This document shows, piece after piece, positions 61,331-64,000 of a stretch of DNA of 64,000 nucleotides (its first letter is position 1; each line of letters begins with the position of its first letter). The translations under genes and the position numbers were made by a program. Location of the stretch: assembly GCF_019511645.1 (NCBI RefSeq), contig NZ_JAEUAX010000001.1, positions 248,001 to 312,000 on the forward strand, read 5' to 3'. Under the pieces are notes generated by a model. That model was not told where the DNA came from, did not search any database, and was given only the letters and a program-made list of their open reading frames with translations. Source of the stretch: Microbacterium ureisolvens. GTDB lineage: Bacteria > Actinomycetota > Actinomycetes > Actinomycetales > Microbacteriaceae.

Positions 61331-63382
61331 CTAGTCCGCCAGACCGCGCCGCGCCAGGAGCGGCTCGATCTCGGCATCACGTCCGCGGAAGTCGCGGTAG
61401 GCCTCGCGCGGATCCTTCGAGCCGCCCACGCCGAGCAGTCGTCCGCGGAAGCGGTCGCCGTTCTCGCGGCGCAGGCCGCCGTTCTCGCGGAACCACTCGA
61501 CCGTGTCGGCGTCGAGCACCTCGCTCCAGATGTACGAGTAATAGCCGGCGCTGTAGCCACCCGAGAAAACGTGGGCGAAGTACGTCGACGAGTACCGAGT
61601 CGGCACGGCCGGGTTGTCGAGGCCGATGTCCGCGAGGGCGGCCGCCTCGAAGTCGGCGACGTCGATCTCCGCGGCGGCGGCTTCTACCGACAGCGAGTGC
61701 CACGCCTGGTCGAGCCACGCTGCCGCGAGGTACTCGCTGGTCGCGAAACCCTGGTTGAACGCCTCCGACGCGTGCAGCTTCTCGACGATCTCGGCGGGGA
61801 GCGGCTCGTCGGTGTCGACGTGGCGCGCGTACGACGCGAGGATCTCGGGCCAGTAGATCCACATCTCGTTGACCTGGCTCGGGAATTCGACGAAGTCGCG
61901 GTACACGTTTGTGCCGGCGAAGTGCGGGTACGTGACGGTCGCGAACAGACCGTGCAGGGCGTGACCGAACTCGTGGAACAGTGTGGTCACCTCGTCCAGG
62001 CTGAGCAGCGTCGGGCGTCCGTCGGCGGGCTTCGGCACGTTGAGGTTGTTGACGACGATCGGCTGCGTGCCGCGGAGGCGCGACTGCAGCACGATCGAGT
62101 TCATCCACGCGCCGCCTCGCTTCGTGTCCCGCGTGTAGAGGTCGAGGATGTAGAGCCCGAGCGTCGAGCCGTCAGCGTTGTGGACCTCGAAGACGCGTGT
62201 GTCCGGGTGGTATCCGCCGAGGTCGGTGCGCTCGATGAAGGTGATCCCGTACAGGTCGGTCGCGGCGCGGAACACGCCGTCCTTGAGCACCCGCTCCGCC
62301 TCGAACCATGGCCGCAGCGCCGCGCGGTCGAGGTCGTACTCGGCGGCCCGGACCTTCTCGGTGTAGAACGCCCAGTCATGCGCCTCAAGGGCGAACGGCG
62401 CAGGGCCGGCATCGATGATGGCCTGGAGCTTCGTCTGCTCGCGTCGCGCATTGCGCGCCGCGGGTGCGGCGAGCTGGCGCAGCAGATCGTGGACGGCCGC
62501 GGGCGATCCTGCGGTCTCGTCCGACGTGATGTATGCGGCGTGCGAGTCGTAGCCGAGCAGGGCGGCGCGCTCGGCGCGCAGCCGCACGATCTCGAGCAGT
62601 GTGGCGCGGTTGTCGTTCTCGTTGCCGCGCGAGCCGCGAGAACGGGATGCCGCGAGAAGGCGCGCGCGCGAACGCCGATCGGTCAGGCTGGAGAGGTAGG
62701 GATGGCCGGTGAAGAGGGTGAGCGTCACGACCCACTTCCCCTCCAGCCCACGATCGGCCGCGGCCTGCGCCGCGGCGGAGAGCTCGCCCTCGGAGAGCCC
62801 GTCGAGCTCGGAGGCGTCGTCGAACACGACCGCCAGATCGTTGGTGTCGGCGAGCAGGTTCTTCTCGAACTGCGTCGTGAGAGTCGACAGACGCTGGTTG
62901 AGCTCTGTCAGGCGCTTCTTCGCCTCATCGTCGAGGCCGGCGCCGGCGTGCGCCATCTCGGTATGGTGGCGCTCCACCAGGTACCGCTGCTCCGGGGTCA
63001 GGTCGAGTTCATCCAGCTGGTCGTGGATCGTCTCGATGCGCCCGAACAGGGCGGAATCCAGCTGGATCGAGTCCTGGTGCGCCGACATGAGGGGCGCCAG
63101 CTTCTCTTCGATCTCCTGGATCTCGGGCGTCGCGTCGGCGGAGGACACCGTGTAGAAGGTCCGCGCGATGTCACCCAGGAGTCGTCCGCTCTCCTCCAGG
63201 GGCAGCAGGGTGTTCTCGAACGTCGGCGTCGACCGCGCGCGCGTGATCGCGGACACTTCGGCCGTATGGGCGGCGAAGGCCTGCTCGAACGCCGGCAGGT
63301 AGTGCTCGGGGCGGATGACGGCGTAGTCGGGCAGCCCGTACGGCAGCGTGCTGGGGGACAGAAGCGGATTGTCGTTCGGCAT
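61331..63382 (-). CDS. M3-family peptidyl-dipeptidase (Dcp/oligopeptidase A-like)
   Basis: A 683-residue zinc metallopeptidase. TLFHEFGHALHGLFA has the HExxH motif near residue 470, and the Glu ligand follows in FVEFPSQVNEMW. The C-terminal substrate-binding YSAGYYSYIWSEVLDAD is typical of the Dcp/OpdA branch. The N-terminal half is helical. It degrades short peptides in the cytoplasm. The ATG at 63382 follows TACGCT by 7 bases, with GGAG within the gap. Its promoter faces the 14-bp repeat array shared with the winged-helix gene. Confidence 0.92.
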   Translation of the reverse strand: MPNDNPLLSPSTLPYGLPDYAVIRPEHYLPAFEQAFAAHTAEVSAITRARSTPTFENTLLPLEESGRLLGDIARTFYTVSSADATPEIQEIEEKLAPLMSAHQDSIQLDSALFGRIETIHDQLDELDLTPEQRYLVERHHTEMAHAGAGLDDEAKKRLTELNQRLSTLTTQFEKNLLADTNDLAVVFDDASELDGLSEGELSAAAQAAADRGLEGKWVVTLTLFTGHPYLSSLTDRRSRARLLAASRSRGSRGNENDNRATLLEIVRLRAERAALLGYDSHAAYITSDETAGSPAAVHDLLRQLAAPAARNARREQTKLQAIIDAGPAPFALEAHDWAFYTEKVRAAEYDLDRAALRPWFEAERVLKDGVFRAATDLYGITFIERTDLGGYHPDTRVFEVHNADGSTLGLYILDLYTRDTKRGGAWMNSIVLQSRLRGTQPIVVNNLNVPKPADGRPTLLSLDEVTTLFHEFGHALHGLFATVTYPHFAGTNVYRDFVEFPSQVNEMWIYWPEILASYARHVDTDEPLPAEIVEKLHASEAFNQGFATSEYLAAAWLDQAWHSLSVEAAAAEIDVADFEAAALADIGLDNPAVPTRYSSTYFAHVFSGGYSAGYYSYIWSEVLDADTVEWFRENGGLRRENGDRFRGRLLGVGGSKDPREAYRDFRGRDAEIEPLLARRGLAD

Positions 63383-63389
63383 GGTCTCC

Positions 63390-63395
63390 AGCGTA
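63390..63395 (-). promoter_or_regulatory. -10 box of the M3 peptidase gene
   Basis: TACGCT ends 7 bases before the ATG at 63382. It lies 30 bases from the repeat array. Confidence 0.4.
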
Positions 63396-63425
63396 GTCAC
63401 GCCGACGGGCGATGCCGAGAGTGTT

Positions 63426-63486
63426 TTGCAAAGATCCAATTGCAAACAAGTAATTGCAAAGAAGTGCTTGCAAAGATCTCTTTGCA
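63426..63486 (+). repeat. Five-copy 14-bp direct repeat (TTGCAAA array)
   Basis: TTGCAAA occurs at 63426, 63440, 63454 and 63468, and a shortened TTGCA at 63482, all with exactly 14-bp spacing. Each core TTGCAA is self-complementary. The array is AT-rich, ends 4 bases before the TAATCT box of the winged-helix gene and lies between two divergent genes. Confidence 0.85.
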
Positions 63487-63490
63487 TCAC

Positions 63491-63496
63491 TAATCT
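63491..63496 (+). promoter_or_regulatory. Leaderless -10 box of the winged-helix regulator
   Basis: TAATCT ends 6 bases before the ATG at 63503, directly next to the last 14-bp repeat. Confidence 0.55.
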
Positions 63497-63502
63497 GAGG
63501 GC

Positions 63503-64000
63503 ATGGCTGAGAACGAGACCCCGGATGCGAAGGATGCCGCCGCCCGCACGGAGGAGCGACACCACCAGGACCGCGTCCTGGATTCCGGAGCCCTGAGGGC
63601 ACTTGCGCACCCGCTTCGCGTGAAGATCTACGACATCCTCAGCCAGTACGGCCCGCAGACGGCGAGTTCACTCGCGGAGCGGCTGGGGGAGTCCAGCGGA
63701 TCCACGAGCTACCACCTTCGCGCCCTCGCCAAGCAGGACCTCATCCGCGAGGCCGAGGATCGCGGTACCGGCCGCGAGCGGTGGTGGGAGCGTCCGGTCG
63801 GGGGCGTGTCCTTCGCGAATCCCGACGCGATGACGACGCCGGCGGGACGCGCGGCGACGCAGGTCGTGATGAACGAGTTCCTGCGCAACCGCAACGATCA
63901 GCTGCTCGACTTCGTCAACCGGGGCATCGGCGGCGAAGACGAGATGTGGCAGGAGGGGACCCTGATCTCCACGGCCACGGCGCGCCTCACGCCGGAGCAG
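63503..64000 (+). CDS. Winged-helix transcriptional regulator (ArsR-like), 3' end outside window
   Basis: The first 166 residues of a regulator. After a charged N-terminal tail comes ALRALAHPLRVKIYDILSQYGPQTASSLAERLGESSGSTSYHLRALAKQDLIREAED in outline, a winged helix of the ArsR type with recognition helix near SSGSTSYHLRAL. The C-terminal part is helical and continues past base 64000. The ligand is unknown. The start is the ATG at 63503, 6 bases after TAATCT. The five-copy repeat immediately upstream is a natural candidate for its operator. Confidence 0.88.
   Translation, partial: MAENETPDAKDAAARTEERHHQDRVLDSGALRALAHPLRVKIYDILSQYGPQTASSLAERLGESSGSTSYHLRALAKQDLIREAEDRGTGRERWWERPVGGVSFANPDAMTTPAGRAATQVVMNEFLRNRNDQLLDFVNRGIGGEDEMWQEGTLISTATARLTPEQ

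Follow-up and report, generated by a model that had tools for sequence, protein, structure and literature searches.

The genome of Microbacterium ureisolvens carries, between the divergent genes of an M3 peptidase and an ArsR-like regulator, five copies of a short AT-rich core, and this raises the question of which protein uses the array and which genes are controlled through it. The array lies in a window of 64,000 nucleotides (contig NZ_JAEUAX010000001.1, positions 248,001 to 312,000), to which all coordinates below refer. The original prediction was autoregulation by the adjacent ArsR-like protein, possibly with the peptidase gene as a target. Comparisons made in both directions, from the array to the regulator and from the regulator to the array, strongly support the first of these proposals, insofar as sequence can speak for regulation. 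It is quite probable that the array is the operator of this HTH_20/ArsR-like protein, a predicted autorepressor, and that it is organized as a chain of overlapping dyads sharing half-sites, one of which also serves as the -35 box of the regulator promoter.

The sequence TTGCAAA begins at positions 63426, 63440, 63454, and 63468, and a fifth core, TTGCA, at 63482, exactly where the five repeats had been placed. Their 14-bp period proved equally exact. Among periods from 7 to 29 bp, only 14 and 28 stand out, every other period yielding two cores in at most 6 of the 146 regions upstream of regulator homologues (described below). The spaced pattern TTGCA-N9-TTGCA has 7 matches on the two strands of the window, all of them within the array, against 0.01 expected from dinucleotide shuffles, and the array is the sole place where it occurs in the 4.33-Mb (4,327,328-base) genome (reversed-pattern control, 0). 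The single half-site TTGCAAAG has 2 copies outside the array in the genome, with 14 for the reversed control. The GC content of the array is 36%, compared with 70% for the window. A chance origin is rejected by mononucleotide shuffles of the 146 regions, which yielded two cores in 6 of 2920 cases and three cores in none, and by 420 stretches of the window outside the array, none of which contains two cores. A simple tandem repeat can also be discarded, because the linkers differ while the cores and the period stay constant.

The repeats had been described as direct. The repeated cores are real, but this term understates their symmetry: TTGCAA is its own reverse complement, so that copies in tandem are at the same time inverted copies, and the two ends of the array are inverted with respect to each other. 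Because the core is self-complementary and the ends of the array point inward, the favoured reading is that of four overlapping 20-bp dyads sharing half-sites, rather than head-to-tail repeats. Dyad 1 (63426–63445, cores 1 and 2) reads TTGCAAAGATCCAATTGCAA, with 2 mismatches to TTGCAAAGNNNNCTTTGCAA, and is the outermost, next to the M3 promoter. Dyad 2 (63440–63459, cores 2 and 3) overlaps it by 6 bp and has 3 mismatches, and dyad 3 (63454–63473, cores 3 and 4) has 2. Dyad 4 (63468–63487, cores 4 and 5), which reads TTGCAAAGATCTCTTTGCAT with 1 mismatch, is the most symmetrical and lies over the regulator promoter.

The orientation of the half-sites can be read from their conserved flanks across the 146 arrays, whose sequences are related by descent, so that the counts describe a pattern and not independent events. 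In the leftmost core, conservation lies on the right-hand side (TGCAAAGAA), and in the rightmost core on the left-hand side (TCTTTGCA); the flank correlation between the leftmost core and the reverse complement of the rightmost one is 0.65, compared with 0.07 for the rightmost core as it stands. Of 183 interior cores other than the -35 core, 157 retain the outer T, compared with 63 of 142 leftmost cores, under a run definition that tolerated more mismatches in end cores than in interior ones; under strict runs, and with the -35 cores included, the contrast is smaller (235 of 254 interior against 95 of 146 leftmost cores). With both outer bases kept in the interior and with inverted ends, the interior cores look as though they are read from either side, and the end cores from a single side. 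The flanks of the interior cores are nevertheless asymmetric, their correlation being 0.77 with the leftmost core, 0.22 with the rightmost, and 0.35 with their own reverse complement. As interior cores favour the right-pointing type, symmetry is incomplete in the upstream dyads, and the array may alternatively be a polar chain that ends in one inverted half-site.

Whether the dyad also marks other genes was addressed by searching for it at large. In the genome of M. ureisolvens, a search allowing 3 mismatches found no dyad besides those of the array (reversed control, 1 per strand). In 20 relatives, most of them selected as ones in whose loci a homologue of the M. ureisolvens MFS transporter gene had not turned up, no dyad was found away from the regulator at up to 2 mismatches; 19 of the 20 have matches, all beside the regulator, and the reversed control gave 1–2 per strand in 14 of the 20. 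A wider regulon was rejected on these grounds, the matches being confined to the regulator locus.

The array stands in a fixed relation to the promoter-like boxes of the regulator gene. The inferred -10 box, TAATCT (63491–63496, plus strand), begins 9 bp after the start of core 5, and a 17-bp spacer separates it from the TTGCAA of core 4 (63468–63473, plus strand), the inferred -35 box. The array had been said to touch the -10 box, and TAATCT does fit such a box, but, core 4 being the -35 box, the array overlaps the promoter and does not merely touch it. A TANNNT hexamer starts at core + 9 in the 14-bp frame in 140 of the 146 loci, the other 6 having no TANNNT in phase, and the hexamer 17 bp upstream of this in-phase -10 is TTGCAA in 127 of the 140, TTGCAT in 12, and TTGCAC in 1. 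One in-phase -10 box per array is the rule (131 of 146 loci), with two in 9 loci. The distance from the start of the -10 box to the first in-frame start codon is 12–13 nt in 136 of the 140 loci; in M. ureisolvens, the ATG of the regulator (63503) comes 12 nt past the start of TAATCT. So short a distance suggests a leaderless mRNA, and the regulator is probably translated from one, with a transcription start site deduced from these boxes. A conserved repeat thus overlaps the -35- and -10-like boxes of the regulator's own gene, and a repressor bound to this repeat would mask the first of these boxes and probably also the second.

The original prediction could be followed up by looking for cores with 14-bp spacing upstream of orthologues in related genomes, and the array is there. 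Starting from the array, a three-core pattern was found in 20 of 58 genomes, M. ureisolvens included (reversed control, 0), and a regulator homologue with 45–100% identity adjoins the array in 20/20 of the loci fetched in this way; an M3 gene was found in 11 of them. Starting from the protein, a regulator homologue at E ≤1e-20 is present in 216 of 295 Microbacterium genomes, leaving 79 without. From the listed matches of these 216, 130 loci were taken, namely the best 30 and 100 further ones, chosen so as to omit most of the loci already fetched by pattern and some others, chiefly on small contigs. Counting as a core any TTGCAA with at most one mismatch, each of the 130 loci shows two or more cores in exact 14-bp phase shortly before the regulator gene; the number is three or more in 123 and two in the other 7. 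As 4 of the 130 duplicate loci fetched by pattern, there are 146 distinct loci in total. Conversely, no three-core array was found in 11 genomes of the same genus without a regulator hit. The combination also occurs on a Microbacterium plasmid (NZ_CP072877.1), which bears an array of four cores together with an MFS gene and a regulator homologue whose match is split into three pieces.

The association extends beyond the genus. Among 76 loci from named genomes, which belong in part to species already covered above, all have at least two cores and 70 have at least three, and up to seven cores are found in Ruicaihuangia, Cryobacterium, and Glaciihabitans. Two distant relatives, from Streptomyces and Chloroflexi (L259 and L260; 37–38% identity), carry a single dyad with the same spacing. 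A blind three-core scan across the class gave hits in 42 of 394 genomes, with 7 of 394 for the reversed control. Using a regulator profile built from array-bearing regulators, a homologue of the family was found to start within about 160 bp in 26 of the 27 newly fetched loci; this count includes 5 Microbacterium loci already counted above and leaves out 12 further genomes with pattern matches. The remaining locus (L294) turned out to be TTGCACTGGGAACC repeated in tandem. For loci from outside the family Microbacteriaceae, the regulator adjoins the array in 14 of 15.

Across all these loci, the number of units per array ranges from 2 to 7 while the step does not change. Where the regulator shares 70% identity or more, intergenic regions with three, four, and five cores are most often 93, 107, and 121 bp long, respectively (3 of 5, 12 of 36, and 3 of 10 loci). 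Length does not follow unit number strictly, since the median for five-core loci is 108 bp, with 121 bp in just these 3 of 10. An alignment of nine loci displays a clean 14-bp gap in three four-core relatives against the five-core ones, and a 28-bp gap in one three-core relative, in both cases with the flanks kept; the other three-core row (L065) is poorly aligned on its left side. Units would thus be gained or lost whole, at least among close relatives.

The regulator gene (63503–64000, plus strand, continuing to 64141 beyond the window) encodes a protein of 212 residues. It exceeds the curated Pfam cut-offs for HTH_20 (47.1 bits; cut-off 27) and HTH_5 (33.5 bits; cut-off 22), and it matches the ArsR-type structures 4omy (NolR) and 6j05 (ArsR) by sequence and, through its AlphaFold model, by fold, together with CzrA and 4g6q (Kfla_6221). 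The model (pLDDT 88.5) consists of a winged helix followed by long C-terminal helices. The longest match, 4g6q, itself a protein of unknown function, extends over most of the regulator (Z 11.8 over 169 residues, rmsd 4.3); fold searches returned no annotated function for the C-terminal half. Metal-sensing ArsR/SmtB regulators typically have a metal site made of cysteines. The M. ureisolvens regulator has no cysteine at all, and among 54 regulators including this one 48 have none and 6 have one; it also falls below the cut-off of the NCBIfam metalloregulator model (41.8 against 55 bits). The listed Pfam (E up to 0.1) and NCBIfam matches include neither the Fur nor the TetR family. The nearest regulators, 96% identical, are those of M. 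trichothecenolyticum and Microbacterium sp. Leaf288. In all 54 aligned regulators, residues H71, R73, and R91 to W95, in the recognition helix and the wing, are invariant, which would explain a half-site that stays constant while overall identity falls to 29%.

Downstream of the regulator come a 76-residue ORF and an MFS transporter gene, each overlapping the preceding gene by a few bases. The small ORF (64138–64368 on the scale of the window, past its end) overlaps both of its neighbours and has no Pfam or NCBIfam match; a related ORF is present in part of the relatives. The MFS protein matches the Pfam families MFS_1 and MFS_3, and its similarity to NCBIfam drug efflux models stays below their cut-offs. 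The likely co-target of the array in M. ureisolvens is this MFS transporter gene, just past the end of the window. A homologue of the M. ureisolvens MFS protein was not found by tblastn in the fetched stretch of 83 of 145 array loci, which leaves room for other transporters there. MFS-like ORFs, named by eye, are present in three loci: in L157 a different one is located downstream, and in L259 and L260 they abut the regulator.

These observations can be assembled into a mechanism. Dimers of the regulator sitting on the dyads would obstruct RNA polymerase at the operon of regulator, 76-residue ORF, and MFS transporter, until a ligand released them; the MFS partner suggests that this signal is a small toxic molecule. 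Within a dyad, the half-site centres would lie about 10–11 bp apart, a geometry that would suit a winged-helix dimer. That 14 bp is not a whole helical turn, as had been pointed out, is right for a single step but is not the full picture, since three steps make 42 bp, or about four turns of 10.5 bp. Successive dyads would be offset by 4/3 of a turn (about 480 degrees), placing neighbouring dimers about 120 degrees apart, so that overlapping dyads could be filled without the dimers colliding. Of the two arrangements first envisaged, a spiral oligomer or several overlapping dimers, the latter is the favoured reading, and more units would be expected to give a more co-operative or tighter autorepression. 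More tentatively, and with real doubt, all dyads may be filled at once: n cores would then carry n-1 dimers forming a sleeve with approximately three-fold screw symmetry, and whole 14-bp units, gained in some species and lost in others, would tune how steeply the gene represses itself. If this is true, the -35 box of the gene thus tuned would itself be a repressor half-site.

Other uses of the array have to be weighed against an operator of overlapping dyads. One is a head-to-tail series of direct repeats covered by an asymmetric filament of the kind formed by BldC. The interior cores do appear to point mostly to the right, as in TTGCAAAG, with the flank correlation to the leftmost core given above, and the number of units varies. 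Such a filament is disfavoured by the rightmost unit, which does not share the orientation of the leftmost: its conservation faces inward, and the base at its outer edge is not constrained. It is also disfavoured by the single symmetric dyad of L259 and L260, and by BldC itself, which is described as a 68-residue MerR-like protein with a 9-bp step (PMC5859096); we regard it as quite unlikely. That the array belongs to another, unlinked DNA-binding protein is very improbable, given that the array and the regulator co-occur in both search directions, that no array precedes M3 where an intact regulator is missing, and that the genome has no dyad away from the array with 3 or fewer mismatches. Finally, the repeated TTGCAA could be redundant -35 boxes for several promoters, without any operator. 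One core is indeed well placed as a -35 box in nearly all loci, as seen above, but most arrays have a single in-phase -10 box, and conservation is not limited to the hexamer but continues into AAAGA and is inverted at the opposite end, which makes this explanation scarcely credible.

A different matter is whether an operator of overlapping dyads would also control the divergent M3 peptidase gene (61331–63382, minus strand), whose best NCBIfam model is Dcp, below its cut-off. Several facts speak for it. An M3 gene is found in the fetched stretch of 128 of the 146 distinct loci, and the distance from its start to the leftmost core is mostly 29–57 bp, most often 44, which could reflect either constraint or shared descent. 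The inferred -35 box of M3 (63413–63418) lies about 7 bp from the edge of dyad 1, so that a bound dimer could touch it, and in the many loci where no MFS homologue was found M3 is one candidate target besides the regulator. Against it stand the M3 loci of genomes without the regulator. Of the 79 Microbacterium genomes without a regulator hit, 20 listed ones were compared, of which 15 have M3. In all 15, none with an intact regulator, M3 keeps as its neighbour valS or the segment that follows valS, and in all 15 there is no array, with at most one core in the 1.5 kb upstream. A TAGGCT or TACGCT box lies close before the M3 start in 11 of the 15, with a near variant in three more (all but L180); the inferred M3 -10 box of M. 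ureisolvens is TACGCT (63390–63395, minus strand), a type thus kept in relatives with and without the array. Moreover, arrays occur without M3 in the stretch (9 of 20 loci fetched by pattern and 9 of 130 fetched by protein), and the in-phase -10 boxes read towards the regulator. The peptidase gene can therefore be dismissed as the main target, and the original prediction of it as a possible target finds no support; it seems to be a passenger and is judged independent of the array. Control of M3 by the array is on balance unlikely, and M3 may be affected by a bound dyad 1 as a secondary target or side effect. Because valS or its following segment stands beside M3 in 15/15 genomes, M3-valS is probably an ancient gene pair that either received the regulator by insertion, alone or along with the MFS gene, or later lost it. 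The M3 peptidase is a warning that divergent neighbours may simply be passengers of an old gene order. Remnants of the regulator were seen beside two of these 15 arrayless M3 genes, covering residues 37–107 in two frames in L173 and residues 116–162 in L182. The TACGCT box of the M. ureisolvens M3 gene starts 13 nt before the start codon, and the M3 mRNA may also be leaderless.

Operators with overlapping dyads are already known. Fur boxes are described as overlapping 7-1-7 inverted repeats over the -35 and -10 boxes that accommodate one dimer, two dimers, or an extended array (PMC11353095); they resemble the present array in that dyads share bases over a promoter. Fur is an unrelated protein, with no domain of its kind in the listed matches of the regulator, and, measured against the Fur boxes of that account, the array here has a fixed 14-bp step, 2 to 7 units, and one half-site doubling as the -35 box. 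BldC from Streptomyces is a winged-helix protein that binds head-to-tail to a variable number of 9-bp direct repeats at promoters (PMC5859096). The shared features are the winged helix, the variable repeat number at promoters, and the actinobacterial host, whereas the present array has a 14-bp step, inverted end units, and a 212-residue HTH_20 regulator. DarR, a repressor of the TetR family, has its operator in its own promoter, where two dimers bind overlapping palindromes (PMC10636190). In both respects it is similar to what is predicted here, but it belongs to another family, and the portion of the paper cited reports just two dimers in the structures and describes no variable-length array (PMC10636190).

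Closer in protein family are the ArsR/SmtB regulators (NolR 4omy, ArsR 6j05, CzrA, and Kfla_6221 4g6q), with which the regulator shares the winged-helix domain and the HTH_20 and HTH_5 matches; it differs from them by the lack of cysteine, the score below the metalloregulator cut-off, and a longer helical C-terminal half. To our knowledge, chained operators are not characteristic of the ArsR/SmtB family. What would be new here is not the overlapping dyads but their use by an ArsR-like (HTH_20) predicted autorepressor, in a chain whose length varies and whose step is fixed at 14 bp. A description of this operator system was not found among the open-licence papers listed, and other literature may hold one.

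The variable number of units, combined with an unvarying and helically commensurate step, provides a natural series for relating operator number to co-operativity, and versions with 2 to 7 units are already at hand among the loci examined. The near-invariant recognition helix could also make the operator predictable for a large group of proteins annotated merely as "helix-turn-helix domain-containing protein", many of which adjoin an MFS transporter gene. A variation on this theme is found on two Streptomyces plasmids (L307 and L308), where the cores have drifted to CTGCAGAG-like sequences, with the 14-bp step kept, about 50 bp upstream of the regulator start. Their recognition-helix motif is SWHLRHL, compared with SYHLR-L. 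The joint change in core and helix is possibly a natural specificity switch, a lead and not a proof, since L307 and L308 are close relatives. On these two plasmids, as well as on a third Streptomyces plasmid with TTGC-type cores, the -10 box begins at core + 8 and not at core + 9.
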